Positions 4,343 to 19,735 of a stretch of DNA of 64,000 nt are shown here, piece by piece (positions within the stretch are counted from its first letter, which is position 1; each line of letters begins with the position of its first letter). This DNA comes from Fimbriimonadaceae bacterium (GTDB lineage: Bacteria > Armatimonadota > Fimbriimonadia > Fimbriimonadales > Fimbriimonadaceae), in contig JALHNM010000001.1 of the NCBI GenBank assembly GCA_022843485.1, forward strand, positions 186,001-250,000. The letters are read 5' to 3'. The notes below the pieces were generated by a model. It searched no databases. It saw only the letters and a list, made by a program, of their open reading frames with translations, and was not told the DNA's origin. The translations under genes and the position numbers were made by a program.

Positions 4343-5231
4343 GCGGGACGTGCCCGATCCGGGCTAGTCGTTCCCCCATTACCTTCTCGCTGAAGGCGAT
4401 GGCGTTATAGCTCGAGCGGATGAAGGGACCGCTGGCCACGAAGGCGAAGCCCAACTCGTCCCCGATCGCCTCGTACTCCTTGAACACGTCCGGATGGATG
4501 TACTCGACCACCGGCAGGTGCTTCATCGTCGGGCGCAGGTATTGGCCGATGGTCACGGCGTCGACCCCGATCGCCCGGAGGTCTTCAAGCGTCCTGACGA
4601 CCTCGTCCCTCGTCTCCCCAAGCCCGAGCATGATCCCGCTCTTCGTATAGATCGCCGGGTCGATCTCCTTAACCATCTCGAGCAGGCGCATGGTCCGGGC
4701 GTACTTCGCTTGGGGCCGGACGATGGTGTGGAGCCGTTCGACGGTCTCGATGTTGTGGTTGTAGATCTCGGGCTTGGCGTCGCAGACGGTGCGCACGCAC
4801 TCCTCGCGACCCTTGAAGTCCGGGGTGAGGACCTCGACGATCACGTCCGGGAGCTGCTTGTGGAGCTGCTCGATCGTCTTGGCGAACTGCCCGGCCCCTT
4901 GGTCGGCGAGGTCGTCCCGAGCCACGCTCGTCACCACTACGTGCTTCATACCCATGGTCCGGGCCGTCATCGCGACGTTGAGCGGCTCGAACGGGTCCAG
5001 CTCTTCGCCTCGACCGACGTTGATCGCGCAGAACCCGCAGCTCCGCGTGCAGGTGTTGCCGAGGATCATGAAGGTCGCCGTCTTCTTGCTCCAGCACTCG
5101 GGCAAATTGGGGCAGCGGGCGCTCTCGCAGACCGTGTGGAGGTTCTTCGAGCGCATCATGCCCTCGACCTCCTTGATCGTGTCGGGCCGTGGGAGCCGGA
5201 TCGTCAGCCACTCGGGAAGCCGCTGCGCCAT
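4323..5231 (-). CDS. lipA: Lipoyl synthase
   Basis: LipA is a radical-SAM enzyme that inserts two sulfurs into protein-bound octanoyl groups to make lipoyl cofactor for 2-oxoacid dehydrogenases and the glycine cleavage system. The 302-residue product has the auxiliary cluster motif C35-x4-C40-x5-C46 (CESARCPNLPEC) and the radical-SAM motif C61-x3-C65-x2-C68 (CTRSCGFC). It also has the C-terminal RSSYNA signature that supplies the conserved cluster-ligand serine. Start ATG 5231 follows a CATAAT hexamer by 6 nt with no Shine-Dalgarno. It lies downstream of the LptC-like gene with a 28-bp gap and probably has its own promoter. No lipB is in the window. Confidence 0.97.
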   Translation of the reverse strand: MAQRLPEWLTIRLPRPDTIKEVEGMMRSKNLHTVCESARCPNLPECWSKKTATFMILGNTCTRSCGFCAINVGRGEELDPFEPLNVAMTARTMGMKHVVVTSVARDDLADQGAGQFAKTIEQLHKQLPDVIVEVLTPDFKGREECVRTVCDAKPEIYNHNIETVERLHTIVRPQAKYARTMRLLEMVKEIDPAIYTKSGIMLGLGETRDEVVRTLEDLRAIGVDAVTIGQYLRPTMKHLPVVEYIHPDVFKEYEAIGDELGFAFVASGPFIRSSYNAIAFSEKVMGERLARIGHVPLTPTSA

Positions 5232-5259: not shown

Positions 5260-6699
5260 TCAGTTGAGTCCGGGCCCCGTACCGCCTGCCGACTGGCCCG
5301 AGGAGCGGCCGATGGGCCCTGAGATCGGCGGACGGGCGGGCGGGTCCGTCGGCTCGCTCCGTCTGCGGTCTGGGAGCTCGTCGTCCCGGATCTGGATCTC
5401 GCCCTTGACGTCCTCGGCGTCCATGACGTCCTCGCCCTCGCGGGTTGAGACCTGGACCCATGCCGCGGTCAGGTCGTCGCCGATCGAGTTGAGCATCCGC
5501 ACCCGGGAGCCTTGGCCCTCCATGCGGAGTGTCTCGGCCTCGCCGTCCCAGACCCCCCGGTCTGCCCACACCATCCTCCACTCCGCGGGCCCCAGATCTT
5601 GGCGCGCTTGCGGACTCCCGGTCGCGACGGCCCGAGTCGCCCCCCGGGCGTACCAGTACTCCACCCGGCTCGACGTGATGCGCAGGGGGTAGTCCCGGAG
5701 GTTGCGCCCGGTTCGCAGCCTCTCCTCTTGCTCCCGTCGGGCCGAATCGTCCGGTGGGGGCGCGGGACGGCCTTTCTTGATCTCCTCCGGCACGACCGGC
5801 TCCAGAGCAGGGATCTCGACCTCCTCGAGCTTCCGGCCCTCCTTGGGCTTCATCAGCATGACCACCCGGCCCGTGAGAACCGCCCGACGCTCTGCCCGGT
5901 AGACGACGACGTCGTCACAGGTCAGGTTCGCGTCCTCCGAAAAGTACCGGATGTTTCCCTTCGCCGTTAACACATCCTTCTCGCGATCATAGACCGCCGA
6001 GTCGGCCTTGACGATGACCTCCCCGTCGGTGGCGCGAACCTTGCCGAACGTGGTGACGTTCCCGCGGATGCTGGTGCGGCCCTTAGGGTCGAGCGCCTCG
6101 AAGCGCCACCGGCGTCGCTCGCCGTCCTGGTCCACCATCCCTTGCCAGGCCAGCGGCCCGACCTCGATCGAACGGTCTCGGACACGGTAGAGCAGCCCTT
6201 CGGTCTTGATGTCCCCCCCTTGGAGCTTGCCACGGACGAGGCCGGGGACGGTGAGCGTCTCGGAGCGCGCGTCGTAGGAGAACGACTCCGCGCCGAGCGC
6301 CATGTCGGTTGTCCAGACCCGAGCCCCGCCTTCTCCCGTGAGGGCACGGGTGTTCTCGAGGTAGACCGCTCGCGCGGCCTGGAACCCGAACGACTCGTCC
6401 CGGCTCGCCCAGTACCGCCCGTCGGTCACCGCGAACATCTCGACTCGCTCTCGGTCGCGCCCGACCGTCGCCCGCTCGACCCGAGCCTGGGCGACGATCC
6501 GGTCTTTGTCGTAGACCTTCCACTCAAAGTTGGTAACTTCGATGCCTGGTTGCTCGGCCTGGCTCGGGTCGGGACGGAACCGAGCGAGGGGGTCGGTCGC
6601 GAACAGCCTCGGCAAGCCCCACCAGGCAAGCCCAGTGATCCCAGCCGCAAGGAGCCCGACCGAGCCGTATACCCAGAGTCCCCTAAGGGAGCGTGACAT
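5260..6699 (-). CDS. LptC/OstA-like lipopolysaccharide-export family protein
   Basis: A 479-residue protein with one N-terminal membrane segment (about 10-28) and a long periplasmic part resembling LptC/LptA (OstA) beta-jellyroll repeats. Typical phrases are VTNFEWKVYDKDRIVAQARVE, then ADSAVYDREKDVLTAKGNIRY and LTCDDVVVYRAERRAVLTG. In characterised systems these proteins form a bridge carrying LPS from inner to outer membrane. At 479 residues it is more than twice the size of E. coli LptC, as if LptC and LptA modules were joined. The tail (about 445-479) is Pro/Gly/Arg-rich and probably disordered. The start overlaps the stop of the upstream lipoprotein gene by 17 bp, so the two are probably co-transcribed. 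No other lpt gene is in the window. Confidence 0.75.
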   Translation of the reverse strand: MSRSLRGLWVYGSVGLLAAGITGLAWWGLPRLFATDPLARFRPDPSQAEQPGIEVTNFEWKVYDKDRIVAQARVERATVGRDRERVEMFAVTDGRYWASRDESFGFQAARAVYLENTRALTGEGGARVWTTDMALGAESFSYDARSETLTVPGLVRGKLQGGDIKTEGLLYRVRDRSIEVGPLAWQGMVDQDGERRRWRFEALDPKGRTSIRGNVTTFGKVRATDGEVIVKADSAVYDREKDVLTAKGNIRYFSEDANLTCDDVVVYRAERRAVLTGRVVMLMKPKEGRKLEEVEIPALEPVVPEEIKKGRPAPPPDDSARREQEERLRTGRNLRDYPLRITSSRVEYWYARGATRAVATGSPQARQDLGPAEWRMVWADRGVWDGEAETLRMEGQGSRVRMLNSIGDDLTAAWVQVSTREGEDVMDAEDVKGEIQIRDDELPDRRRSEPTDPPARPPISGPIGRSSGQSAGGTGPGLN

Positions 6700-7561
6700 C
6701 GACGTTCTTTATGACGTTGGTCGCGTCGATCCGGAGCGGAGCCTCACCGACCGCCGCCCCTTTCTGGGCCCGGACGGTGTAGTCGCCGACCGCGAGCCAG
6801 AGCTGGAAGCGCCCGTCTGAGTCCGCCGTGGTCGACCGGACGACCGAGCCGAGCTGGAGGACAGTGACGGCCGCCCCCGCCCCTTGTGCAGCGGGCAGAA
6901 CCCGTCCTCGCACGTTGAACGGAGGCGGCGGAGGGTCGATCGCGCCTGAGGGGGAGAGAGCGACGGTGCCGACGTCGACGACCCCGGCCAACGGGCCCGC
7001 GGGCGGGTTGAAGCTGCGTGGGGTGTAGCCGGTCGCCGACGCCGTGCCCTGGAGCCCCAAGAACACCGTCTCGGAGTCGGGCGAGTACGCGACGTTGGCG
7101 ATGCTGAACCTCCCATCGACGGCGCTCGTCGCTCGCTGCCCGGCCAAGGTGACGGACGCCCCGGGGACAGGGTCGTCCGTCCCAGCATCGGCGACCCGTC
7201 CCTCGACTGTCACCGTTTGAGGGCCTATGTATAGGTCGCCTATGTCAGTGTTGGCACTAACAGCGGGGAACGAGAAGCTCCGCACCACCACGGCCTGGCC
7301 AGGCGGGGCGTAGGTCACGGACACCGACGATGTCCCGACCGGGACGGCGAGTTCGAAGAAGCCGTCGATGGGGTCGGTGGGGGTGGACGTCGCTCCGGCT
7401 CTCACCGTTGCGACCGGGTCCGGGGCCGTGCCCGTCACGATCCATAGCACCCGGCCCTGGAGCGCGACGGTCCCTCCGCCCCCAGTACCTCCGCCACCAC
7501 CCCCACCCCCGCAGCCGGCAAGAAGGAGGAGAAGGGCGAACCACGCGAGCACCGGCCTCAT
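6683..7561 (-). CDS. Lipoprotein with carboxypeptidase-regulatory-like domains
   Basis: A 292-residue protein starting at ATG 7561, which overlaps the upstream stop as ATGA and so suggests translational coupling. The N-terminus is a lipoprotein signal with lipobox LLAGC (Cys17), then a glycine run and a linker. The body has about three beta-sandwich modules of the carboxypeptidase-regulatory/CNA-B type, each opening with a G-R-V phrase: QGRVLWIVTG, EGRVADAGTDDPVPGASVT and RGRVLPAAQGAGAAVTV. Each ends with a phrase like DGRF. Such modules are common in anchored surface proteins and usually mediate assembly or binding rather than catalysis. An upstream extension to 7948 is open but has no signal-like start and runs through the neighbour's coding sequence. 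Specific role unknown. Confidence 0.75.
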   Translation of the reverse strand: MRPVLAWFALLLLLAGCGGGGGGGGTGGGGTVALQGRVLWIVTGTAPDPVATVRAGATSTPTDPIDGFFELAVPVGTSSVSVTYAPPGQAVVVRSFSFPAVSANTDIGDLYIGPQTVTVEGRVADAGTDDPVPGASVTLAGQRATSAVDGRFSIANVAYSPDSETVFLGLQGTASATGYTPRSFNPPAGPLAGVVDVGTVALSPSGAIDPPPPPFNVRGRVLPAAQGAGAAVTVLQLGSVVRSTTADSDGRFQLWLAVGDYTVRAQKGAAVGEAPLRIDATNVIKNVDVTLP

Positions 7562-10272
7562 TGAGACCCCCGAGCTTGGATTTGGAACGTCATCCGACGG
7601 GCGGTCGCTTGGAACGTGTGCCCGACCCGATCGGACAACCGGCGCCACCGAGTGCCGGTCCATACAGCCAGGTCGCGGCGACCGGCGATCGGTCGGAGCT
7701 TTAGTCCGTACCATTCTCCTGGTATCAAGCTGTCCATTACAACCGTGAACGTCTCGACCGGCGCGACCGGGCGGACGTCCCGGTAGAGCGGACTCGGGCC
7801 ACTCGACCAAACCCGGACTCCGGATGGAGACGGAGCCACGTCGAGCGTCAGGGCCGATCTGGAGAGGGCTCTTGAGTCGGGGCTTTGGCCAATACGAACC
7901 GATCCCAGCGTAGTCCGGCCACGGACAAGAGAGACGAGGCCCTCCCACTGCACCCTCGGCCGGGGTTCGCGGTCGCGCCCAGCGGGCCTGTTGCCGGTTC
8001 GCGGGAAGAACACGAGGGCGGCCCCCTCGGGTCGGTTGGCCCGGACGAACACGGCCTGCCCCGGCCGGAACTCGAGGGTTTCGACCAGGCTTCCGCTGTC
8101 AGGGTTGTTCGGGTCACCGGTCCAGCCGAACATGACGCTACCGATCCGCCCGGTCCCGACGGCGTCCGCGAACGTGGTCAAGGCTTCGGCCCCGACGGTG
8201 ACGAGCACGTCGGTTCGGACTGCCGTGGCGGCGAACGGGACCGTGACCATGTTCCATCCCGGCTCGAGAGCGACCGAGACCGGCGTTTGCGGGACGGAGC
8301 GCCCGGGGATGGAGACGTTCCCATTGCTCGCGGCCCGGAGCCAGAACCCCCGGCCCCCGCGCACCTGGCCTTCGTCGGGGAAGAGGTCGTAGCGAGCGGA
8401 GACCGGGTTCCACGCTCCCAGCAGTAAGGACAACGGGTCTGACCTGAGTGCATCGACCGGGTTGGGACGGTACGGATCGAGCGGCAAGCCGAGCAGCGCG
8501 AGCCGTCCCGGCAGCGCAAGGTCGTAAGCCGTCTCGGCCGACGCCGGGGTCAGATCGACGTACACTGGCCCGTTAGTCTTGTTCACCCTCCGCGAGATGA
8601 CCTCGACCGTCCCGCCGCCATCACGACGGAAGACCTGGACGGTGAGCGGGCCGGGGCGAAGGAACGAGGCGTCGGTCAAGCGGGCCCCGAACGCAAAGTT
8701 CGTCACGGGGATCCCGCCTTGCTGGCCCCCGTTCCAGGTCACGGCGATGACGTACTCGCCTTGCGCAAGCCGAGGGAGACCGATCAGAGTGCCCGCGAAG
8801 GTGCGTTCGGCGGGGTCGGCCCCAGACGCGATGGCCCCCGCCGGCAGGTTGACCCGCGTGACTCGGCTGCCGAACGGGACGTCGACCGTCATTCGGTACG
8901 GCTGTCCGTTAAAGTTATCAGCCGTGAAGTTAGGCACAACAGAGCCGTAGCCCCCTGCCACATCGATGCGGTCGTCTTGGGCCGTGAGGATGGTCCGCGT
9001 GAAGTCCGGGCGCCAGTAGATGGGGAATGAGGCCCCACCGAGGAGAGTCTCGTTCCCGTTCGCGGCGACACGGACCGCGTTGAGCTCGATGTTGAAGACG
9101 CCGAAATCGGACGACCCGGGGGTCGGGGGGAGCGGGACGACCTGGACGATCGCCCGGGTCGCACCCCCGCCAGCCGGGTCGAGGATCGCCTGCCGTGCCG
9201 CCCACGGAGCGAAGGGGAGGCCCTCGACCGTCGATCCCGCCGACCCCCGCACTGCGTCGAGGGCGATCTGCCCGAGGGCCTCGAGCTCCGTCACCGATTG
9301 GTACAGGTCAGGAGCCGCGTAATACCTACGGTTCAGCTCAGCGGCGAAGCCGGGGACTTCGGCAAGGAGTTTCGCCCATGCGGTTCCGGCCATCTGATAG
9401 CGCAGGAGGTAGGGCCCACCAGTCGAACCTCCGGGAGGCAAAGGGGAATCGAGCAGGTTCGGAGCTATGAACCGTCTTGCACCGAGTCCGGGCTGGTTCG
9501 CCCAGTCGTAGACCGGACCGACGTCGTAGAGCCCGCCAAGCACCCCTTCGACCTGGTCCGCGTCCGGGTTGTCGGGAAGACTGCCCGGCGTCCGCGCGAC
9601 GCCCATCGTCACCGCCCTTACGAGACCTTCGCTGTAGGCGTCGAACGGGTACGGCTTCGGCCCTTGGTAAGCCAGGAGCAGCGTGTGGACGTAGTTGATC
9701 GACGCGGCGACGGGGTTGTTGTAAACGGGGATCCGCACCTCCGGCCCGTCGGGGCCGTTCGGCACGAAGTAGCCGCCCGCGACGGCGAGCCGCGCTTGGA
9801 TGTCGGCGTCGTAGTTGCGCACGCGGACAGTGCCAGGCACGGCGGGCCGCCCGAAGAGCCCGTTCATGGCGGGGCGGGCCGCTACGAAGGTCCGCTCGAG
9901 GAGGCTTCGGTAGCTGGGCGGGAACGCCCGGTCCCCGCCCGTGTCGAACGTCGGGACGATGTCGTCCGGGTCTCGCCCCCGTTCGCCGAAGGTCATCGGG
10001 AGCGGCCGCCCGCCGCGGGTGAGAACGACGCGCATCGGAAGGAACGTCGAGCCCCGCGTGAGGCCCGCGCGTTCCCAGGTCGCCCGGGACCGGTCAGTCA
10101 GCGCCGCGATCCGAGACGCGTAGGCCCGGACGGCGGCGTCGGCCACCGGACGCCAGTCGGAGGGCGAGCGGGTCCCGATCTCCACGCGCAGTTCGGTGGC
10201 CGCCGCCAGGGTCGAGAACGAAAAGGCGAGGGCCAGAAGCAACGGCCCTCGCTTGAGGAAAGGACTCAGCAC
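7558..10272 (-). CDS. Large secreted protein of unknown function with a degenerate gluzincin-like segment
   Basis: A 904-residue protein beginning at GTG 10272 with a signal peptide (KRGPLLLALAFSFSTLAAA). I do not recognise the family. Residues 120-240 contain NYVHTLLLAYQG (H196) and, 19 residues on, YPFDAYSEGLVRA (E215). The spacing matches the HExxH-(~18)-E layout of gluzincin metallopeptidases, but Thr replaces the catalytic Glu and Leu the second His, so it is probably inactive if homologous. The middle has beta-rich modules. Near residue 650-680 a phrase of the type GFWLRA...SVALEPGWNMVTVPF resembles repeats seen in secreted proteins of this group. The C-terminus also looks beta-rich. 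It sits between two lipoprotein genes, 15 bp after one and overlapping the next by 4 bp. Confidence 0.7.
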   Translation of the reverse strand: MLSPFLKRGPLLLALAFSFSTLAAATELRVEIGTRSPSDWRPVADAAVRAYASRIAALTDRSRATWERAGLTRGSTFLPMRVVLTRGGRPLPMTFGERGRDPDDIVPTFDTGGDRAFPPSYRSLLERTFVAARPAMNGLFGRPAVPGTVRVRNYDADIQARLAVAGGYFVPNGPDGPEVRIPVYNNPVAASINYVHTLLLAYQGPKPYPFDAYSEGLVRAVTMGVARTPGSLPDNPDADQVEGVLGGLYDVGPVYDWANQPGLGARRFIAPNLLDSPLPPGGSTGGPYLLRYQMAGTAWAKLLAEVPGFAAELNRRYYAAPDLYQSVTELEALGQIALDAVRGSAGSTVEGLPFAPWAARQAILDPAGGGATRAIVQVVPLPPTPGSSDFGVFNIELNAVRVAANGNETLLGGASFPIYWRPDFTRTILTAQDDRIDVAGGYGSVVPNFTADNFNGQPYRMTVDVPFGSRVTRVNLPAGAIASGADPAERTFAGTLIGLPRLAQGEYVIAVTWNGGQQGGIPVTNFAFGARLTDASFLRPGPLTVQVFRRDGGGTVEVISRRVNKTNGPVYVDLTPASAETAYDLALPGRLALLGLPLDPYRPNPVDALRSDPLSLLLGAWNPVSARYDLFPDEGQVRGGRGFWLRAASNGNVSIPGRSVPQTPVSVALEPGWNMVTVPFAATAVRTDVLVTVGAEALTTFADAVGTGRIGSVMFGWTGDPNNPDSGSLVETLEFRPGQAVFVRANRPEGAALVFFPRTGNRPAGRDREPRPRVQWEGLVSLVRGRTTLGSVRIGQSPDSRALSRSALTLDVAPSPSGVRVWSSGPSPLYRDVRPVAPVETFTVVMDSLIPGEWYGLKLRPIAGRRDLAVWTGTRWRRLSDRVGHTFQATARRMTFQIQARGSQ

Positions 10273-10287
10273 TTGTTTTGAACCCCT

Positions 10288-11580
10288 CTATGGTAAGAGC
10301 GTCGCGACCCGGCTAATAGTTCGGCTTTCATCGCTATTCGCCAACCCGACGACGAGCCAGTAGTACGTCCGGCCCCTCGTCAGCAGCGGGCCATCGTACA
10401 CCACAGACGTACCGGTCGCGCGCGCCGAGTTCGACCAGAGGGCCTGCACGCCCACCCCAGGGAACTCGTCGAACAAGAACACGATGAACTCGCCCGCCCC
10501 CGAGCCCGGCTCCCACCGGAACGCGCCGTCGAACGGTCCCTCGACGGGCAGCAGCGGGTTCAGCGTCCTCGCGACCACTCGGTCGCTCAGCCGGCTCTCC
10601 GTCTGGTTCGGGAGGTCGGGGTAGAGCGTCCCGATGGTGCTCACGGCATAGGAGTACGTAGATGACGGCCGCAACGAAAGGTCAACGTAATAGGCGGCGA
10701 GGGGCTCGGGCAGGAAGTCGATCCCGTTGAGCACTCCGTCGGTGCCAGCAGCCCGGTAGACGCCCCACCCCAAGAGGTCTTCGAACCGTTGCTCGTTCCA
10801 CTGGAGGTTGGCCTCGACGAGCCACGGGTCAGTCGGCTGACGCGTGCCGTCGCGACGCCCATCGCGCACGGACCGCCGTGGGTCCATGAGCCGCTTGACC
10901 GCCTCGTAGGGGTCACCGTCCGGGCGGCGCGAGCCGGCGTTCGGCGAGACCCAAGTTACGACGCTGAGTCCGGTCGGCGGTTGGAGGAAAGGGAGGCCCC
11001 CGTCGTCCACGGTGAAGTCGAGCGACCGGCGCTCCCCAGCGCGTAGCCTCACGACGGTCTGGTCCGCGCTCAGGCCCGCGCCGCCCGCGCTGAGGGCGTA
11101 GTCCACGCCCGCCACGAGGTCGCGCAGCGTGTAGCGGCCGCGCTCGTCCGTGAACGTGCGCTGGCTGGACCCGGCCCCGAAGTAGGCGAACACGGAGGCG
11201 CGCTGGAGAGTGAACCCCTGTCGGTCCCGAACGACCCCGCTCAGGGTCGCGAGCTCGGACTCCGGCGCGACGACGATGTTGGCGCTGGCCGTCGTCTCGT
11301 TGACCGCGTTGAGCACGCTGGTCCGGCCCCGGTAGAGCACCCCGTTGCGCCGCACCTCCGCGACCAGCTCGACCTCCCCGTCTCCTTGGCGGGTCAGGAC
11401 GTATGCCCCTGTCGTCGACGTTTGCGCGCTGCCGAACCGGCTGCTCACGGTCGCCCCCCGCACGGGTTGGTTGTCGGCGTCGAGCACCGTGCCGGTCACA
11501 GTGGACGTCTTCTGCACGGTCTCGCCCCCACACCCGACCACGCCGAGCACGAGGAGGAGAAGGAGGGGCAAGGGCTTCAT
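10288..11580 (-). CDS. Lipoprotein with carboxypeptidase-regulatory-like and fibronectin-like domains
   Basis: A 430-residue protein from ATG 11580 (MKPLPLLLLLVLGVVGC, lipobox Cys17). An in-frame extension to 11886 runs back into the beta-barrel gene and lacks a signal. After the lipobox come two carboxypeptidase-regulatory-like modules (TVTGTVLDADNQPVRGATV and TLSGVVRDRQGFTLQRASV). A segment rich in aromatic residues follows, then a fibronectin-III-like or fibronectin-related domain at the C-terminus ending in a YYWLVVGLAN strand. It follows the beta-barrel gene by 41 bp and precedes the 904-residue secreted protein by 15 bp. Its likely place is the outer membrane or periplasm. Function is inferred only from this setting. 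Confidence 0.72.
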   Translation of the reverse strand: MKPLPLLLLLVLGVVGCGGETVQKTSTVTGTVLDADNQPVRGATVSSRFGSAQTSTTGAYVLTRQGDGEVELVAEVRRNGVLYRGRTSVLNAVNETTASANIVVAPESELATLSGVVRDRQGFTLQRASVFAYFGAGSSQRTFTDERGRYTLRDLVAGVDYALSAGGAGLSADQTVVRLRAGERRSLDFTVDDGGLPFLQPPTGLSVVTWVSPNAGSRRPDGDPYEAVKRLMDPRRSVRDGRRDGTRQPTDPWLVEANLQWNEQRFEDLLGWGVYRAAGTDGVLNGIDFLPEPLAAYYVDLSLRPSSTYSYAVSTIGTLYPDLPNQTESRLSDRVVARTLNPLLPVEGPFDGAFRWEPGSGAGEFIVFLFDEFPGVGVQALWSNSARATGTSVVYDGPLLTRGRTYYWLVVGLANSDESRTISRVATLLP

Positions 11581-11621
11581 CGTCAGGCAAGTAACGCTCG
11601 GGCGGGCTGGACGTTTCGCCG

Positions 11622-14210
11622 TCACCGACCAAAGTTGAACGCGAGTTCGAAGTCGAGCCCCCGTGAGGAATAGGATCCGCTCTGCACGAGGGGGTCGCGG
11701 CTCCGAACGTCGAGGAAACGGTAGCTCATGTTGAACGCCAAGCTCTGCCAGATGCGGTACTGGTAGCCGAACGACACGTCCGTCCGCTGCTGGGCCTGGT
11801 ACCCCGTGCCCAGCCCGGTGCTGAACGAGAACCCTAGGTTGTGCCGGTCGGCGAGCGCATAGCTGAGGTCGAACCGGGTGTCCCACGTGTCCTGCCTGAA
11901 CTCCCCGCTCCCTCCGGTCAGGAGCGAGCTGAACCCGAACTGATAGGTGAGCCTCCGGCTGAACCGACCCTCGGCGAGCAGGCTAAGGGTGGTCGCGTTC
12001 GCCCGGGAGGGCGAGTCGATGAAGCGGATCGTACTGTAGTCGATCCCCGCATCGAGCGTGAGCGCGTCGCCCGCCCGGTAGGTGCCGCCGATCGAGAGGC
12101 TGTCGGTCTCCGAGTTCGAACTGACCGGGCCCTGCGTGCGGAACCGCTGCGCCCGGGCCCGCATCCCCAGGCGGTCGGTCGGCGTGAACTCGAGGGAAAG
12201 CGCGAGGCTCTGGGCGTTCGTCGCGCCCACGAAGGCCTGCGACCCGGACCCTCCGCTGAATCCCCCGTCGCCAAAGCCGCTCCCCGACGTGGAATCGAAC
12301 CCGAGGGTGGCGAGCTTCCCGGCGTCGCTGTCGGCGTAGTCGGCGCGGAACGCGAACGTCTCGCCCCGACGGTAGACCGCCCCCAGCTGCACGTCCCGAC
12401 CGAGGCCCGACTCCTCCGCCGTCGCGACCCGGCTAAAGCCCAGGCTCCCGTCGAGGGACCACTCCCTCGAGGCCGCGTATCCACCGCGGAACCCGAGCGT
12501 CGCGAGGTCCACCCGGCGTCGGTCGGTTCGGCCGTTCACGGTGGTGGTCCCGTCCGCCGCCTGGCGCGAGAGGTCGAGCCGCCCGTTGAACTTGCCGACC
12601 CGGGTCGAGGTACCGAGCGCCGTCGTGTCGATCGTCGAAGGCCCCCTCGACGTCCGACCCTGGCTCCGGGTGTGGGAGAGCCGCCACGGCGACCCGCCCC
12701 CCGTCGGAGTGAAGCTCACCGAAGCCAGGGCCCGGGTCGAACGGACGCTCGACGGGGCCTCCTCGCTCCCGGCCTGGATGCTCGAGTTCGACCATCTCGC
12801 CTGGTACTCCCATTTCGACCCGGGCCGGTACGTCGCGCCGAGCTCGGCCGCGCGCTCGTTCCGGGAGAACCCGACCGTCTCGACGCTCACGTAGCCGCGC
12901 GGCACCTCCCGCAACGACCCGGTGAGCTCCAGCGCCCCCGTTCGGTAGCGCCCGTCGACGCCTTGGGCCGTCCCGCTCGTGCCCCCGATCTGACGGCCGA
13001 ACGCACGACTGTAGTCGATCGAACCCCGCACCCCGAGGGGGAGCCGGTAGGAGAGACCGAACACCTCGCGGTCGCTCGCCACCGTCTCCACGGCTTTAGG
13101 GGTGTAGAGCACGTCGATCTGGTCCGTCGCCGGCATGAACCGGTTGAAGTAGAAGATGGCCGCGTTGTCCGGGTCGAACCGGTAGTCGACGTCCTGCCTT
13201 TGGAACACCCCGTTCACTCGGATGACCACCGTGGCCGTGTCGGCGGGGGCGAACTGGAGGGTGTAGGGGATGGACGGCGGCCCGAAGCCGAAGAACTTCT
13301 CGAGCCGGGTCGAGTCACGGACGGAACCCCCGGCGTCCTGACGCATGACCGCCACCCCGAGCCGTCCGACGCGCCCGAGGTCGACGCCGACGGACGCCCC
13401 TTCGACCGACCCCCGTTGGCCGGTCACGCCGATGACCTCGTACGTCGCGACGATGGTGCTCGTAGGCGGGATGATCCGGCCCTGGAGGGTGGCCCGGTTC
13501 ACGAACGTCACCGACCCCACCTCGTAGTCGATCGTGTAGTCCTCGCCGAAGCGCTGGCGAACCCCGTCCACCTCGATCGACTCGGTCCCGCGAAGGATCT
13601 GGCTGCTCTGAAGGTAGTACGGGCCCGGGGAGTTCGCGCCTTGGAGGGTGACCGTCCGGGGCTGTCCCCGAACTTCGCTCCGAAGGGCCCGTGCCTCGAA
13701 GGTCTTGGTCCGGTAAGCCACCTGGACGCCGGTGAGCGCCTTGTCGAACCGGGCGAACCGGTTCTCGGGGGCCAGGCGCCCGCGTACGTCCCCCAGGTTC
13801 ACGGTCCACCCAGCCCGCTCGTAGTCCAGGCTCAGCCGTTCGGCTTGCGGGTCCTGGAACCGGCTGTCCTGGATGTTGAGGGCGAAGTTGGCGACCCCGA
13901 ACACCTTGGAGCCGTCGATGCGGACCTGCCCGAAGTCGGTGAACCGGTCGAGACCCCGCCCGCCGTACTCCCCCACTTCGAAGGCGTCCGTGTCTCCGCT
14001 GACCGTGCGGGTGTGGTAGGCGATGCGCCGGAACCCGGTCACCGTGACCCGGTCGGCCACGTTGCGGTCGAACCACTCGCCGAGTCCCGTCCGCGCGTTC
14101 GTCTGCGCCACGGCGGAAGCGGACAAGGCCGTCGCCAAAACGAGGGCGCTAGCTAGGTAGGGCGCTCGCAAGGGCCTCGACGTTGGTCTGAGCTTGGCGA
14201 CGGAGGTCAT
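11622..14210 (-). CDS. Outer-membrane beta-barrel protein with two SprA-like periplasmic modules
   Basis: An 862-residue protein with a signal peptide (about residues 15-36, ending ASAVAQ). Residues 55-190 are beta-rich. Two related modules follow at about 196-257 (GPYYLQSS...RGTESIEVDGVRQRFGEDYTIDYEVGSVTF, abridged) and 315-371 (VVIRVNGVFQRQDVDYRF...AIFYFNRF). They share the pattern V-x-V-[DN]-G-V-x-x-x-x-x-D-Y-x-x-D-x-x-x-[GA]-x-[IV]-x-F. That pattern resembles modules repeated in SprA/Sov, the type 9 secretion barrel. From about 380 to the end the sequence alternates polar and apolar residues in long hairpins, as in transmembrane barrels, closing with FELAFNFGR. ATG 14210 overlaps csaB by 62 bp; a TTG at 14171 would keep the signal and cut the overlap to 23 bp. 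Confidence 0.78.
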   Translation of the reverse strand: MTSVAKLRPTSRPLRAPYLASALVLATALSASAVAQTNARTGLGEWFDRNVADRVTVTGFRRIAYHTRTVSGDTDAFEVGEYGGRGLDRFTDFGQVRIDGSKVFGVANFALNIQDSRFQDPQAERLSLDYERAGWTVNLGDVRGRLAPENRFARFDKALTGVQVAYRTKTFEARALRSEVRGQPRTVTLQGANSPGPYYLQSSQILRGTESIEVDGVRQRFGEDYTIDYEVGSVTFVNRATLQGRIIPPTSTIVATYEVIGVTGQRGSVEGASVGVDLGRVGRLGVAVMRQDAGGSVRDSTRLEKFFGFGPPSIPYTLQFAPADTATVVIRVNGVFQRQDVDYRFDPDNAAIFYFNRFMPATDQIDVLYTPKAVETVASDREVFGLSYRLPLGVRGSIDYSRAFGRQIGGTSGTAQGVDGRYRTGALELTGSLREVPRGYVSVETVGFSRNERAAELGATYRPGSKWEYQARWSNSSIQAGSEEAPSSVRSTRALASVSFTPTGGGSPWRLSHTRSQGRTSRGPSTIDTTALGTSTRVGKFNGRLDLSRQAADGTTTVNGRTDRRRVDLATLGFRGGYAASREWSLDGSLGFSRVATAEESGLGRDVQLGAVYRRGETFAFRADYADSDAGKLATLGFDSTSGSGFGDGGFSGGSGSQAFVGATNAQSLALSLEFTPTDRLGMRARAQRFRTQGPVSSNSETDSLSIGGTYRAGDALTLDAGIDYSTIRFIDSPSRANATTLSLLAEGRFSRRLTYQFGFSSLLTGGSGEFRQDTWDTRFDLSYALADRHNLGFSFSTGLGTGYQAQQRTDVSFGYQYRIWQSLAFNMSYRFLDVRSRDPLVQSGSYSSRGLDFELAFNFGR

Positions 14211-15222
14211 CGGTGCGTTGGCGGAGGGCGGCGACGGCCCGGTCGCGATCTTTGAGATAGGCGACGAACCCGTCGAAGACCCGCTGGGCCGTCAGGCCTT
14301 GCATGGTAGGAGGGGCCGGTGAGCCGATCGCGTTCGCAAAGGCGGTCACCTTTGGGTCGTAACTCACCATATAGGCCGGTACGCCGACCGTCGCCGCGAG
14401 CACACCGGCGTGCAGCCGCATAGCGATCACCCCATGCATCCGGGCGATCCGCTCCTGCGCCGCGCGAGGACCCGCAAGGCCCCGCATGTCCGGGACTTTC
14501 CCCCCGAGTGTCTTCGCGATCTCGAGGATGAGCGGGCCGTCTTCGTCCCGGTCCATCTCGATGAAGGTGGGGATGAACCCGTTCGAGTTGAGAAGCCGGG
14601 CCAGCTCGGCGAAGATCTGCACGACCGAGCGGCCCTTGTCCTTGCCGAACGGACGGGCCGAGACGCCCACGCTCTTGCTGCCCCCAGCACCGAACGCCGT
14701 CGCCTCCCCTGTTACAGGCGGCTCAGGAAGGAGGAAGGCTGTATCGGCGGCCACGATGGGCCGTCCCCTATAGCCAAGCGCCTGCAGAGCCCCGACCGAG
14801 GCCTGATCCCGGACGACGACGAGATCGGCCGCGTTGAAAGCGGACCCTGCCCACCGCTTACCGAAGAACGACGTAAGCGGCCCCACCCCCTGCCCCAGCA
14901 ATACGACCCGCTTCCCCGCCTTCTTCGCCTCGCTGACGAGTCTCGAGTAGTACGCGACGCTGCGCACGCTCGTCGCGTCCTGGAACACGCTCCCGCCCGG
15001 GAAGACAAGGGCGTCGCACTGACGGATCGCGGTGGTGACCGCCCCGTAGTCCTTCCGGTGGATCCCCGGCAGGCCGTACCGGCGGGTGAGGTCCTCGACG
15101 TTGCCAGCCAATACCTGGACCTCGTGGGAAAGGCCCCCAATCCCGTTCATGAAGCCGAGCAGGATGGCGTCGTCGCCGAGGTTGCCACAGCCGAAGTAAC
15201 CGGCCAGAAGGAGTCGCGCCAT
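14149..15222 (-). CDS. csaB: Polysaccharide pyruvyl transferase CsaB
   Basis: CsaB adds pyruvate ketals to secondary cell-wall polysaccharide, the modification that SLH-domain surface proteins bind. The 357-residue product opens with LLAGYFGCGNLGDDAIL, the typical N-terminus of the family, and continues with VFPGGSVFQDATS, KRVVLLGQGVGPL and AMRLHAGVLAATVGVP, all conserved in pyruvyl transferases. It starts at ATG 15222, 12 bp after the DUF5693 membrane-protein gene, and overlaps the beta-barrel gene downstream. The context implies that this organism anchors SLH proteins to a pyruvylated polymer and that the barrel proteins encoded beside it belong to the same envelope. Confidence 0.92.
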   Translation of the reverse strand: MARLLLAGYFGCGNLGDDAILLGFMNGIGGLSHEVQVLAGNVEDLTRRYGLPGIHRKDYGAVTTAIRQCDALVFPGGSVFQDATSVRSVAYYSRLVSEAKKAGKRVVLLGQGVGPLTSFFGKRWAGSAFNAADLVVVRDQASVGALQALGYRGRPIVAADTAFLLPEPPVTGEATAFGAGGSKSVGVSARPFGKDKGRSVVQIFAELARLLNSNGFIPTFIEMDRDEDGPLILEIAKTLGGKVPDMRGLAGPRAAQERIARMHGVIAMRLHAGVLAATVGVPAYMVSYDPKVTAFANAIGSPAPPTMQGLTAQRVFDGFVAYLKDRDRAVAALRQRTDDLRRQAQTNVEALASALPS

Positions 15223-15234
15223 CAGTGAGGGGCC

Positions 15235-17055
15235 CTACAGCGCACGTTGGACGATCCTGCGTACGCCCCACCACGCCACGGCGCCGAGGATACCGCCCAA
15301 CACCCAACCGATGACGACGCGGGTCAGGCTCACGTCGAGCGGAGTGTGGAGGTGGCAGAGGGTGTTGACCACGCTCGTCTGACCGATCGCCCCCACCACC
15401 AACAGGATCGATGCCCATGGGCCGAGCGTCGGACGGGACCCGGCGAGCCGGCGGAGGGCCAACCCGACCACCAAAGCCGGGTGGCCGATGAGGAACTCTT
15501 TCGTCCGGGGCCGGGTGTGGAGGATGCGGTCGAGGACCGAACGAAAGCGGAGTTCGAGGTCCGACACCGCCGCTGGGTTCTCGTTCCCCGTCCGGGCGAG
15601 CATGAAGGCGAGGGCGGCGAGCCCGACGAGCCCCACCGCGGCCGTCCCCCAGAGGATCGGTTTCGCCCACAGCTCGGACGGGCGGACATGGTCGACGAGC
15701 AGGATCAGCCCCACGACCAGGAGTGGCACCCCGACCGAAGCCTTGACCCCGACGAACTGCTCGAGTTGCAGCATGTACGGGAGGCCGACCAGCATGCCCG
15801 CCACGCACAACCCTCCGACCAGGCTCAAGCCGGTGACGACCGCATAAGCGAGGGGCACCGGCGCCTCCGGCTTCGCCCGCAGCCAGAGGTAGCCGAGGAT
15901 CGGGAAGGCCACCGAGAGCCCGAACGCGGCGAGCGGTCGGGTGGGTTCCACGACCCCCAGCCCCGCCAACAGCCCGATCGCTAGCAACGCGGCCTGCCGC
16001 GCCCGACCCCGCGGAAACAGAGCCCCGACGCCCCACGCCAACGCAGGCAGGGCGGCGAGGGCTATGAGCGGCGCGACCCAGGGGGCAGGGACAGGGTCGT
16101 CGAACGGCCGAGGTGTGCGCACGACTCCGCCCTCCGCCACGACCGCCCGCTCGACGGCGAGCAGGGTCTGGGCCATCCCCCTTAGCGGTCCCGGCCCGCC
16201 GAGCGAGGGCGGGCGCACAAGGAGCCACCGGACGTTCCGCTCACGGTAGGCCTTGGCGTACCGCTCGACGATCGTGCTCAGGGCGGTGCGGTCCGCCTCG
16301 GCCTGCTGCATCGCGTGGAGGCGGGCTGTCCGTCCTATGGCCTCGGCCGACACGGTGCTGTCCCCGGCAAGGCGCACGAACTCGGGCGTCAGGTAGTCCA
16401 GCGGGATGTCGTTGAGGGCGAGGGCGGTGTCCTCGAGAGAGGTCCGGAACCCCAGCACCTGGTCCCCCGCGGGCAGGTACGCGGTGGCCCCGTTCTCACG
16501 AGACTCCTCCAGGACGTCGCGGATGTAGGCCGGGTCAGACCCGACGGCGTTGGCGTGGCGGGCGACGAGCACGAGGCCCAGGCGACGCACCGACTCCGCG
16601 GTCTCCGGGTCGATGCCGATAGAGGTCACGGACAGGGCGTCGAGGTCGCCTCGGAAGCTCAGCCCCAGCGCGGAATCGCTGGCGGACAGGGGCGGCCCAC
16701 CCAGGCCACCGCGCCGGGCGACGCCCCGCGCCACCCGCGCCAAGAGCGAAGGGGGGCCCTGCAGCGACGTCCCTCGATCCGTGGTGAAGAGCGAGAGGCG
16801 GCCGGTCGCCACGACGTCCGCCACCCTCTGTTCGGTGACGGCGACCCCGGTGAGCCCCCGGTCGGCGAGGTACCCCAAGGCCTCGTCGAAGGTCCGCCCC
16901 TCGACCGCCGCCGCCTCCCGGATGGCCCCGGCTTCCATCAGGAGACCGACCGCCCGGTTCCCTGCCTCGACCCGGTACCGGGCCGAAAGGGACACCGAGC
17001 AAAGCAGGACGGTCGCCACCACCGATGCGGCCGCCCACCAGGGCCACTTAGTCAT
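15235..17055 (-). CDS. DUF5693-type polytopic membrane protein
   Basis: A 606-residue protein from ATG 17055, which overlaps the rhomboid stop by 8 bp. A longer form from 17172 would run into the rhomboid gene. There is one N-terminal membrane segment (MTKWPWWAAASVVATVLLCSVSL), an extracytoplasmic domain of about 300 residues with an alpha/beta flavour (IREAAAVEGRTFDEALGYLADRG, then LLVRPPSLGG), and about eight membrane helices from residue 335 to the end. This is the architecture of DUF5693 proteins, which to my knowledge are often encoded beside csaB. No enzyme activity is established. It could help export or remodel the polymer that CsaB modifies. Confidence 0.75.
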   Translation of the reverse strand: MTKWPWWAAASVVATVLLCSVSLSARYRVEAGNRAVGLLMEAGAIREAAAVEGRTFDEALGYLADRGLTGVAVTEQRVADVVATGRLSLFTTDRGTSLQGPPSLLARVARGVARRGGLGGPPLSASDSALGLSFRGDLDALSVTSIGIDPETAESVRRLGLVLVARHANAVGSDPAYIRDVLEESRENGATAYLPAGDQVLGFRTSLEDTALALNDIPLDYLTPEFVRLAGDSTVSAEAIGRTARLHAMQQAEADRTALSTIVERYAKAYRERNVRWLLVRPPSLGGPGPLRGMAQTLLAVERAVVAEGGVVRTPRPFDDPVPAPWVAPLIALAALPALAWGVGALFPRGRARQAALLAIGLLAGLGVVEPTRPLAAFGLSVAFPILGYLWLRAKPEAPVPLAYAVVTGLSLVGGLCVAGMLVGLPYMLQLEQFVGVKASVGVPLLVVGLILLVDHVRPSELWAKPILWGTAAVGLVGLAALAFMLARTGNENPAAVSDLELRFRSVLDRILHTRPRTKEFLIGHPALVVGLALRRLAGSRPTLGPWASILLVVGAIGQTSVVNTLCHLHTPLDVSLTRVVIGWVLGGILGAVAWWGVRRIVQRAL

Positions 17056-17737
17056 CCTCGAACCCGGCCTCCTCCTCGAAGTGCTTGCGCGCAAGGACCT
17101 TGTCGCGCCCACCGAGGACGAGCACGGTGAGCATCCCCGCCACGAACCCACCAGCGTGGGCCCATGTCGCAACCCCGTCTTGCGGCACGACGACCTGGAT
17201 TAGGAACCACGCCCCAAGGAGCAACCAGGCGGCCACGTTGAAGGTCCACCACACGAACGGCAACACGACGATCTTGATCCGGTTCCCCGGGAAGAGGAGG
17301 AAGTAGGCCCCGAGCACGCCGCCGATGGCCCCGCTGGCGCCGAGGACAGGCACGGGGGAGCGAGGGTCGACGAAGATCTGGGCAGCGAACGCGGCCACGC
17401 CCCAGAACAGATAGAACAGGGCGAAGCGGTGGCTCGAGAGCGCCGCCTCGACGTTCGGCCCGAAGATCAGGAGGAAGATCACGTTGCCCGCGATGTGGGC
17501 CAGGCTCCCGTGGAGGAACGTCGCGGTGAAGATCTTCGCCACCTCGAACGGGTCGCCCTGCCCCATCAGGGCCTGGACGACGAGCCGAGGGGTCATGGCG
17601 AGGTCGGCGAACGCCATCGAGGGGCCGAACCAGCCTCCGCCCCGATCCCAAAAGTAGAGCGCGACGCAGAGCCCGATCAGCGTCCAGGTGACGATGGCCG
17701 GATCGCGCGAATACCGGCTGTCGCGGATCGGGATCAT
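17048..17737 (-). CDS. Rhomboid family intramembrane serine protease
   Basis: A 229-residue polytopic protein. The rhomboid hallmarks are FLHGSLAHIAGNVIFLLIFG (75-93), with the conserved His-x-x-x-N, the catalytic Ser in GASGAIGG (S135), and the catalytic His in WAHAGGFVAG (H194). Six hydrophobic segments fit the core rhomboid fold. It cleaves substrates within or next to the membrane. The C-terminal tail is acidic and cytoplasmic (RKHFEEEAGFEDD). It heads the overlapped run rhomboid, DUF5693, CsaB, beta-barrel, which suggests a role in the same envelope programme, although rhomboids are also common as lone genes. A TAAACT hexamer lies 12 nt before the ATG. Confidence 0.93.
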   Translation of the reverse strand: MIPIRDSRYSRDPAIVTWTLIGLCVALYFWDRGGGWFGPSMAFADLAMTPRLVVQALMGQGDPFEVAKIFTATFLHGSLAHIAGNVIFLLIFGPNVEAALSSHRFALFYLFWGVAAFAAQIFVDPRSPVPVLGASGAIGGVLGAYFLLFPGNRIKIVVLPFVWWTFNVAAWLLLGAWFLIQVVVPQDGVATWAHAGGFVAGMLTVLVLGGRDKVLARKHFEEEAGFEDD

Positions 17738-17749
17738 GCTGAGCCGCGC

Positions 17750-17755
17750 AGTTTA
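17750..17755 (-). promoter_or_regulatory. -10-like hexamer TAAACT for the rhomboid operon
   Basis: The minus strand reads GGTAAACT, then 12 nt to ATG 17737. It overlaps the TAA stop of the upstream repeat-protein gene. If real, it would be the head promoter of the rhomboid to LptC-like run. No Shine-Dalgarno is seen. Confidence 0.35.
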
Positions 17756-19735
17756 CCGGTCCCAGAAGACCCCGACCTGGCTCTCGCCGGGCACGGGGTT
17801 CTGGGTGGCCCAGTTCACGGCCCGGCCCCCGTTCCGAGCCCACGGCACGCCTTCGGGGTAGGTGTCCTGCCCCTGGAGGTCGAGGTAGAGGCCCAGCCCG
17901 AACGAGAACTCGCGGAGGGACCCTTTCGTGGCCGCGTTGGAGCTCCCGAGCGTCGTGCCCCGGGCACTGACGGTGTCATCGCCCAAGAGGTCGAGGTAGA
18001 CCCCGATCCCGTTCTCGTTCCCAGCCCCTAGGCTGAGGTTCGGCGCCTGGCGTGTGTCGTTCCCCGCCCGGTCGAGGAAAAACCCGGTCCCGAAGTCGTG
18101 TCCAGCCCCCTGGGCCATGTTCATCGTCGCGACGGTGAGATCGTTGCCGCCCCCGTCCTCGTAGTAGCCGACCCCGAAGTGCGCGGAGGCGCCCTGGACG
18201 TACCAAACCCCGTCCGACCGGTCGTCCCCGGCGTCGTCCCAGAGGAACCCGACCCCGCCCCAATAGCCGACCCCCTGGCCGAACACCCCGCACGAGTACT
18301 GGTCGTCGCCCGCCAGGTCGTGGAGCAGCCCGACGCCGCCCATGACGCTGTTCCCGTACAAGAAGTCCCCGCGGATCCCATACCCCGCCCCCTGGGCCAG
18401 GCTCACGTTGTGATCGGCCGACTGCGGCGACGGGAAGTCCAGGGTCTTGTCGTCGGCCGTGTACGAGTCGCGCCCGGCCCGGTCGATGAGGGCCCCGAAC
18501 CCGGACGGCAGCCCGCACCCCTGGGAGGTGGTGAAGCATCGGTAGCGGTCGTCGCCCTGCTTGTCCTCGAGTACCCCAACCCCGTGCCGGGCGTACCCCT
18601 GGGCGTCTGCGTACGAATCGTACACGTCGTCGCCCGCCTGGTCTCGCAGATAGGCCACCCCGAACGTGGCCGAACCGAACGAGGCGAGGTGGCTCCGGTA
18701 GAGGTCGTTCCCATCAGCGTCGAAGAGCGCGACGATCCCGAGAGCGGCTGCCCCTGGTCCAGGACGACCCCGACCCACCCGGCGCCCCGCGAACTGGTCC
18801 ACCCGGCTGGCACCGAGTGCGGGGTCGCTCAGATAGCGGTCGTTGCCCGCCGTGTCGAGCACGACGCTCAGCCAGTTCGCGCTGGACTGGTTGGCCGGGG
18901 TGTTCAGGTAGGTGTCGTCCCCGCCGGTGTCGATCACGAGCAGCGTGGCGACGCCGTCGTGGGTACTCGCCCCGCCCCCCGTCAGTACGATCCGGCCCCA
19001 CGCCGTCTCGATTCGGGCGTCGTACCGCACGGTCGAAGAGACTGACCGCAGGCTCGTCTCCGCCACCTCGCACGCGGCGAGGACGTCCTGGGCCGCGGCG
19101 ATGAGGTAACGGACGTCGATCCGAGCCGACGCCTCACGGGCTGTACGCTCTTGAACCGCGGTCGGCCGCTCCGGGATCGAGGTGGTCGCAAGGCGGTACA
19201 CGGTCGCCGGGTCGCACCCGAGCAACGCCGCCCGCCGGACCTCGACCGCGGACTCCGCGACGAGCAAGAGGAGGGCCGCGGCCTTCTGCACCTCGGCGGG
19301 GACGGGCGCCAGATCCGGGAGCGGGCCGGTCACAAGGCCCCGGTCGCGCATCCCTTCCAGCACGCGGCGAAGCGAGCCGTCGGCCCGGGCCGCAACGGAC
19401 TGCTCGGCGATCGGGTCGCCGAGCAACGAGCGACGAGAACCTAGGCCGATCGCCCTGCCTCCCGCCTCGACAGCGGCCTGGGGTCTCCCGACCGCTGTGT
19501 TGAGCTGTCGCCGCAGCATGTCTGCGAAGAACGGGTTGCGCCACGGGTTGCCGTGGAGGGCGGCGAACGTCGGCGTGGTCCCGTCGCCCTGGCGATAGAA
19601 TGGCGTGGTGTCGAGGTCGTACCGCGCGGTCTGCGTCGTCAACCCAGCGATCCCCAATGCGGTCTGGAAGTCGGCCGCGAACGTGGTCGGCTGCTGCGCG
19701 ATGAGGGCGGCGAGGACGGCGGCGGTCAAGCTCAT
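17753..19735 (-). CDS. Secreted protein with 12 D-x-x-G-[DN]-D-x-Y repeats
   Basis: A 660-residue protein from ATG 19735 with a short signal-like start (MSLTAAVLAALIA). Residues about 20-265 are mainly helical and not recognised. From about 266 the protein is a tandem array of roughly 25-45-residue units, each with a core like LxDxxGDDxY: VIDTGGDDTY, VLDTAGNDRY, LFDADGNDLY, LEDKQGDDRY, LIDRAGRDSY, LHDLAGDDQY, YLDLQGQDTY and five more. Glycine- and glutamine-rich stretches (AQGAG, GQGVGYWGG) join the cores. The Asp/Gly spacing recalls RTX calcium-binding nonapeptides but with a longer period, so a calcium-stabilised beta-roll or solenoid is plausible. Its start overlaps the start region of the divergent hydrolase gene. 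Confidence 0.75.
   Translation of the reverse strand: MSLTAAVLAALIAQQPTTFAADFQTALGIAGLTTQTARYDLDTTPFYRQGDGTTPTFAALHGNPWRNPFFADMLRRQLNTAVGRPQAAVEAGGRAIGLGSRRSLLGDPIAEQSVAARADGSLRRVLEGMRDRGLVTGPLPDLAPVPAEVQKAAALLLLVAESAVEVRRAALLGCDPATVYRLATTSIPERPTAVQERTAREASARIDVRYLIAAAQDVLAACEVAETSLRSVSSTVRYDARIETAWGRIVLTGGGASTHDGVATLLVIDTGGDDTYLNTPANQSSANWLSVVLDTAGNDRYLSDPALGASRVDQFAGRRVGRGRPGPGAAALGIVALFDADGNDLYRSHLASFGSATFGVAYLRDQAGDDVYDSYADAQGYARHGVGVLEDKQGDDRYRCFTTSQGCGLPSGFGALIDRAGRDSYTADDKTLDFPSPQSADHNVSLAQGAGYGIRGDFLYGNSVMGGVGLLHDLAGDDQYSCGVFGQGVGYWGGVGFLWDDAGDDRSDGVWYVQGASAHFGVGYYEDGGGNDLTVATMNMAQGAGHDFGTGFFLDRAGNDTRQAPNLSLGAGNENGIGVYLDLLGDDTVSARGTTLGSSNAATKGSLREFSFGLGLYLDLQGQDTYPEGVPWARNGGRAVNWATQNPVPGESQVGVFWDR
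17858..18943 (-). repeat. Coding tandem repeat: 12 Asp/Gly-rich units
   Basis: Twelve units in the C-terminal part of the secreted protein share a core of hydrophobic, x, D, x, x, G, [DNRQ], D, x, [YST]. Spacing between cores varies from about 25 to 60 residues. The DNA copies are diverged, so this is an old protein repeat and not a recent DNA-level expansion. Confidence 0.75.

Follow-up and report, generated by a model that had tools for sequence, protein, structure and literature searches.

The envelope of the Armatimonadota is almost unstudied. Among the described systems closest to the locus considered here, OmpM-like outer-membrane tethers have been reported in Armatimonadetes (PMC9388160), and CsaB, in the organisms studied, acts on a lipid-linked wall polymer, making the pyruvylated ligand of SLH domains (PMC6801904). 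The type IX secretion system (T9SS), to which SprA (Sov) belongs, has been reported from Bacteroidetes only (PMC4793230). We analyzed a 64,000-nucleotide stretch (the window) of the 2.96-Mb genome of a Fimbriimonadaceae bacterium, in which eight minus-strand genes run from position 17737 to position 5260. In order of transcription they encode a rhomboid-family protease, a DUF5693 membrane protein, CsaB, a barrel (Bar), a lipoprotein (Lp1), a large secreted protein (Sec), a second lipoprotein (Lp2), and an LptC/LptA-like protein (LpC). The reading that we favor, which falls a little short of an even chance, is that the run joins a SprA-like surface-protein exporter (Bar, Sec, Lp1, and Lp2) to a polymer-pyruvylation unit. 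Literature searches found no paper on DUF5693, on CsaB in Armatimonadota, or on SprA in Armatimonadota. The author of an earlier note on this DNA knew of no characterized system with this gene set, and we likewise found none.

The Bar-Sec pair

The tightest and most specific link within the cluster, newly found here, is that between Bar and Sec. Our sample comprised 151 genomes of the phylum and 40 loci of up to 20 kb that were read (below, f-numbers denote families, G genomes, and L loci). Full-length copies of both proteins were found in 98 genomes, Bar only in 3, Sec only in 7, and neither in 43; counted by family, 24 had both, 11 had neither, and 2 were mixed. Bar usually occurs as one full-length copy per genome and precedes Sec as a neighbor in 40 of 94 genomes and 16 of 24 families. 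One Fimbriimonadaceae genome (G123; f1), a single 5.23-Mb contig (L080 and L170), apparently lacks Bar and full-length Sec while retaining rhomboid-DUF5693-CsaB and LpC, and it is apparently a natural loss strain for the pair.

Bar (11622 to 14210, minus strand; 862 amino acids [aa]) is predicted to be a giant outer-membrane beta-barrel of a short, SprA-like kind. The AlphaFold2 model, made with 29 sequences (pLDDT 78.9), has 36 long strands (8 + 3 + 25), a count that belongs to a prediction with a pTM of 0.57, and two inserted SprA-motif domains at residues 190-260 and 302-370. Its best match in VIA-align was SprA 6h3i (Z 19.0, rmsd 6.0, 535 residues aligned), and SprA 8gl6 also scored highly (Z 18.6, 644 residues); the porins that ranked next reached Z 16.5 with 234-306 residues, so that the length aligned to SprA was about twice that of any porin listed. 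The SprA family TIGR04189 matched 24 of 29 Bar homologues (best E value, 2e-21). Fold match and motif together support the SprA-like barrel proposed in the earlier note. Matches to the window protein itself in Pfam and NCBIfam were weak only, and searching known structures by sequence for Bar, Sec, and DUF5693 yielded nothing useful. We rejected Bar as an OmpM/SlpA protein, because Pfam finds no SLH match in it.

Sec (7558 to 10272, minus strand; 904 aa) has a signal peptide and matches no Pfam or NCBIfam family. Its model (pLDDT 80.5, pTM 0.74) shows an M1-like gluzincin domain at about residues 100-400, followed by beta-sandwich domains, and residues 100-565 were placed on M1, M61, and M60 zinc peptidases with Z scores of 9.6 to 7 (PfA-M1, Z 9.6 over 230 residues; an M61 peptidase, Z 8.4). 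The HExxH zinc site was found in none of the 34 Sec homologues checked, most of which retain the third zinc ligand's "EG" motif. Because HExxH is missing from all 34, no peptidase activity is expected, and Sec as an active peptidase was rejected. The reading that best fits the model is that Sec is a pseudopeptidase bearing beta-sandwich domains in its C-terminal part.

Four distant Sec homologues carry an FlgD-type Ig domain at the C-terminal end; T9SS cargo tails are likewise Ig-like beta-sandwiches (PMC11285876). The C-terminal part of Sec (profile positions ~583-908) is shared by several other large proteins per genome, also in genomes without Bar (for example, G080:C2:912138-913124 and G044:C1:1437649-1438638). 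A role of the module as a Bar-specific sorting signal is not supported, since it is found in other proteins and in Bar-less genomes.

The two lipoproteins flank Sec. Lp1 (10288 to 11580, minus strand; 430 aa) has the lipobox LVLGVVGC and two CarboxypepD_reg domains (PF13620, 53.5 bits); Lp2 (6683 to 7561, minus strand; 292 aa) has the lipobox LLLLAGC and CarboxypepD_reg domains (PF13620, 56.6 bits) and follows Sec in nearly every Sec-bearing locus. We propose that Bar, Sec, Lp1, and Lp2 form a dedicated system for the export and assembly of a surface protein, in which Bar would act as a short SprA-like giant pore. Sec would cross the inner membrane by means of its signal peptide, be carried outward through Bar, and remain at the cell surface, where it would form part of a coat together with the lipoproteins. 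The "surface-layer" role that the earlier note had named as one option is the direction favored by the Bar-Sec data.

Several results weigh against such an exporter. Foldseek placed SprA only 40th among its matches to Bar, and barrels resemble one another. The TIGR04189 likeness is mostly restricted to about 90 residues (SprA 587-691), and the SprA equivalog cut-off of that model (200 bits) was reached neither by the Bar of the window (15.7 bits) nor by the best homologue (75.1 bits). Profile searches of the PDB with Bar did not find SprA. The T9SS cargo tail TIGR04183 had no match in the window's own genome and one or two matches in 3 of the 14 genomes searched. As for the pairing, the P value of 1e-26 for co-occurrence comes from a statistic that ignores phylogeny, and in about half of the genomes Bar and Sec lie on separate contigs or regions. 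A search for the GldL/GldM motor (TIGR03517) found no match anywhere, but controls were equally silent. Because the sequence match is short and below the equivalog cut-off, and because motifs like Bar's short ones occur weakly in phage-tail families, we label the protein SprA-like, not SprA.

The fold matches of Bar that rank next behind SprA include porins, and the pair could instead serve nutrient uptake or gating, with Bar as a large pore and with Sec and the CarboxypepD_reg lipoproteins as a surface lid or plug in a SusC/SusD-like layout. The presence of two such lipoproteins fits this layout, their domain also starts SusC-type barrels (weak TIGR04056 matches), and the peptidase-like fold modeled for Sec could bind peptides. 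We nevertheless consider uptake distinctly unlikely: Pfam and NCBIfam recognize no TonB box or plug domain in Bar, genomes usually encode one full-length Bar and not a large set of paralogues that differ in substrate, and the fit of SprA is better and longer than that of any porin listed.

The operon and its break-up across the phylum

The cluster is an ancestral, phylum-wide envelope operon, broader than one strain. DUF5693 is present in 147 of the 151 genomes and Bar in 110; CsaB comes immediately after DUF5693 in 38 of the 39 DUF5693 loci read, and DUF5693 precedes Bar in 49 of 97 genomes and 9 of 23 families. The complete order rhomboid-DUF5693-CsaB-Bar-Lp1-Sec-Lp2-LpC is repeated in many Fimbriimonadaceae, and in most loci the conserved unit starts with the rhomboid. 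A locus from a distant family (L087) has the same order, with an extra small lipoprotein after Lp2 and with LptC and LptA as separate genes. Within a second collection of 14 named loci, 7 hold the eight genes and the upstream gene in window order (Bar being frame-split in one of them), and 2 further loci lack Lp1 only. At L158:5884-8587 (CP021423.1), the Bar gene is spread over three frames in an otherwise intact operon, which may reflect a sequencing error or a pseudogene.

Elsewhere the operon is broken at different points. In f20, f21, f26, f36, and f37, the run consists of Bar-(Lp1)-Sec-Lp2 with LptC/LptA-like genes further on; in f4, f24, and f8, DUF5693-CsaB-Bar stands at one site and (Lp1)-Sec-Lp2 at another, in f4 with LpC. 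Such an arrangement would be expected of an old operon that broke up in different ways. The earlier note had proposed gene order beyond this strain as its own test; the order recurs in Fimbriimonadaceae and is fragmented phylum-wide, and the note's view of one envelope operon spanning all compartments is supported.

Within the window, we confirmed the presence, order, and tight spacing of the eight same-strand genes: the intergenic distances in transcription order are -8, +12, -62, +41, +15, -4, and -17 bp, in line with the overlaps or gaps of at most 41 bp reported before. The previous assignments to families (rhomboid, DUF5693, CsaB, lipoproteins, LptA-like) also hold by Pfam and NCBIfam scores. 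The run of eight stands, but its edges are less sharp than claimed. A gene for a 733-aa repeat protein with a predicted signal peptide (17753 to 19954, minus strand; no Pfam or NCBIfam match) lies 15 bp upstream, and lipA (lipoyl synthase; 4323 to 5231, minus strand) lies 28 bp downstream; the limits of the operon therefore cannot be drawn from tight spacing alone. A scan of the locus for promoter-like and terminator-like signals gave a result no better than chance. The 733-aa protein, which has many G-(D/N)-D-x-Y-like repeats, is kept beside the rhomboid in many Fimbriimonadaceae (f1) loci and stands outside the phylum-wide unit. lipA was found beside the operon in none of the 40 loci read and thus provides a natural control for background synteny.

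As its neighbors lipA and the 733-aa gene illustrate, the run can also take in other genes, and the eight may have no joint function: envelope housekeeping genes could stand in one transcription unit by descent, Bar and Sec being the only functionally linked pair. Break points that differ by family are consistent with this, as is f14, which is without DUF5693 and keeps Bar-Sec. The association of the same eight genes across distant families argues the other way, as does the position of CsaB, which still adjoins Bar in f14 (L143) and lies near it in f21 (L149) though DUF5693 is absent or elsewhere. We judge this explanation improbable.

Proposed pyruvylation and SLH tethering, and the Lpt genes

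The first three genes are nearly universal. The rhomboid-family intramembrane protease (17048 to 17737, minus strand; 229 aa; PF01694, 100.7 bits versus a cut-off of 22.6) has GASG and His motifs and is therefore probably active; it was rejected as a rhombosortase, since TIGR03902 gave 22.4 bits and the cut-off of 84 was not reached. The DUF5693 protein (15235 to 17055, minus strand; 606 aa; PF18949, 373.1 bits versus 29) has, by hydropathy, one N-terminal transmembrane segment, a periplasmic domain, and about eight C-terminal transmembrane segments, and its alignment shows conserved RPRTKEFLIGHPAL and HxH motifs. CsaB (14149 to 15222, minus strand; 357 aa) is a predicted polysaccharide pyruvyl transferase (PF04230; TIGR03609, 215.3 bits, just above the cut-off of 213.1).

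SLH proteins were found in 11 of 12 genomes, including that of the window, whose SLH protein, encoded outside the operon, combines a single SLH domain with a coiled coil and a long C-terminal region, the layout of OmpM. Given the role of CsaB in SLH binding and the SLH protein in the genome, a function for CsaB-DUF5693 is likely without need of Bar or Sec. The two probably serve SLH tethering, with CsaB, to judge from its sequence, as the putative pyruvyl transferase. We postulate that the rhomboid, DUF5693, and CsaB most likely make and pyruvylate a wall- or lipid-linked polymer, which would be bound by the SLH domain of an OmpM/SlpA-like outer-membrane tether.

The last gene, LpC (5260 to 6699, minus strand; 479 aa), encodes a predicted fused LptC-LptA-like periplasmic bridge protein. 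It matches PF03968 (LptD_N/LptA) at 25.4 bits versus a cut-off of 20.4, and its profile matches LptA 2r19 (E value, 1e-4). PF06835 (LptC) finds no match in LpC; the unfused relatives in L087 score above the cut-off as LptC (PF06835, L087:2062-2640) and LptA. The same genome encodes LptF and LptG, and the genes LptC-LptA-LptB-LptF-DUF3084-RuvC-like form a run of their own to the left of the window (L113). In view of this core set, LpC is a second, fused LptC-LptA copy, and we ruled it out as the only LptC/LptA of the genome. Its presence in G123 shows that it is not strictly tied to Bar-Sec.

Beside LptG on contig C9 of the same genome lies a 753-aa protein (L112:6961-9219) that has no Pfam match and is homologous in three genomes. 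Such proteins of 753-831 aa next to LptG (also L116:10276-12768 and L119:9850-12132), with LptD-like features as judged by eye, are probably the phylum's divergent LptD candidate. PF04453 and PF19838 had no match anywhere in 12 genomes; the silence of PF04453 is weak evidence because cyanobacterial and Deinococcus controls were missed too. Bar as LptD was rejected, since neither family matches it and a divergent LptD-like gene stands beside LptG. At L117 (G081) and L121 (G062), core Lpt genes, a DUF3084-like gene, and the gene for an OmpM-like SLH porin lie together, which links lipopolysaccharide export with the outer-membrane tether.

These genes bear on the glycan-export system suggested in the earlier note. 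In such a system for glycan or glycolipid export, CsaB and DUF5693 would build a pyruvylated polymer, LpC would ferry it across the periplasm, and Bar would let it cross the outer membrane, while Sec and the lipoproteins would act as assembly factors. Consistent with this, CsaB and DUF5693 stand immediately before Bar in nine families, LptC/LptA homologues follow Sec-Lp2 in f2, f12, f20, f21, f26, f36, and f37, and large barrels such as LptD are among the Foldseek matches of Bar. However, genomes that lack Bar and Sec still retain CsaB-DUF5693 and LpC, the tightest tie of Bar is to a protein, Sec, and not to the enzymes, Pfam finds no LptD domain in Bar, and LptF/LptG, LptB, LptA, LptC, and the divergent LptD-like gene form a separate core. 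The data thus do not specifically support glycan export, which we consider unlikely.

Comparison with described systems

The retention of CsaB-DUF5693-rhomboid and of LpC where Bar and Sec are missing implies at least two separable units, not the one dedicated system formerly proposed. Our preferred reading, a surface-protein exporter joined to a pyruvylation unit, would accordingly comprise two coupled but separable units in an ancestral Armatimonadota envelope operon, and LpC, as a second LptC-LptA-type bridge, probably supplies the same sites in the outer membrane with a glycolipid. A more specific version is somewhat unlikely: a minimal T9SS-like exporter outside Bacteroidetes, with a stripped SprA-type pore and one dedicated, co-inherited pseudopeptidase cargo without T9SS sorting tails, in the same operon as the polymer-pyruvylation unit and as a second Lpt bridge, which would anchor the cargo at the surface.

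The cluster suggests an unstudied way of building a cell surface. If Bar is a SprA-type translocon, a pore that ranks among the largest single-chain protein pores known would also occur outside Bacteroidetes, and a short, one-cargo SprA version would show the minimum of such a system and whether a simple two-part exporter was the origin of T9SS. Surface-protein export would then also be tied to the CsaB/SLH outer-membrane tether, which is considered an ancestral feature of this region of the bacterial tree. The Bar-Sec pair is a sharply testable unit, with a sequenced relative, G123, that naturally lacks it.

Set beside T9SS SprA/Sov (TIGR04189; 6h3i and 8gl6), Bar has its best whole-barrel fold match there (535-644 residues) and shares, in 24 of 29 homologues, the motif domain at SprA 587-691, and its model has about 36 strands, the number known for SprA; it differs in length, at 862 aa versus more than 2000 aa, and its own genome lacks the cargo tails known in T9SS. 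With M1/M61 gluzincin aminopeptidases, Sec has the predicted fold and mostly the "EG" motif in common, whereas HExxH is lost. LpC shares LptA/LptD_N sequence with the Lpt bridge (LptC and LptA) but is fused into one 479-aa protein, a second copy without its own LptB/F/G nearby. As in the OmpM/SlpA tether with a CsaB-pyruvylated polymer, the genome has CsaB and an SLH/coiled-coil protein; the gene for the latter, however, lies elsewhere, Bar is without an SLH domain, and Bar-Sec stands outside the known tether.

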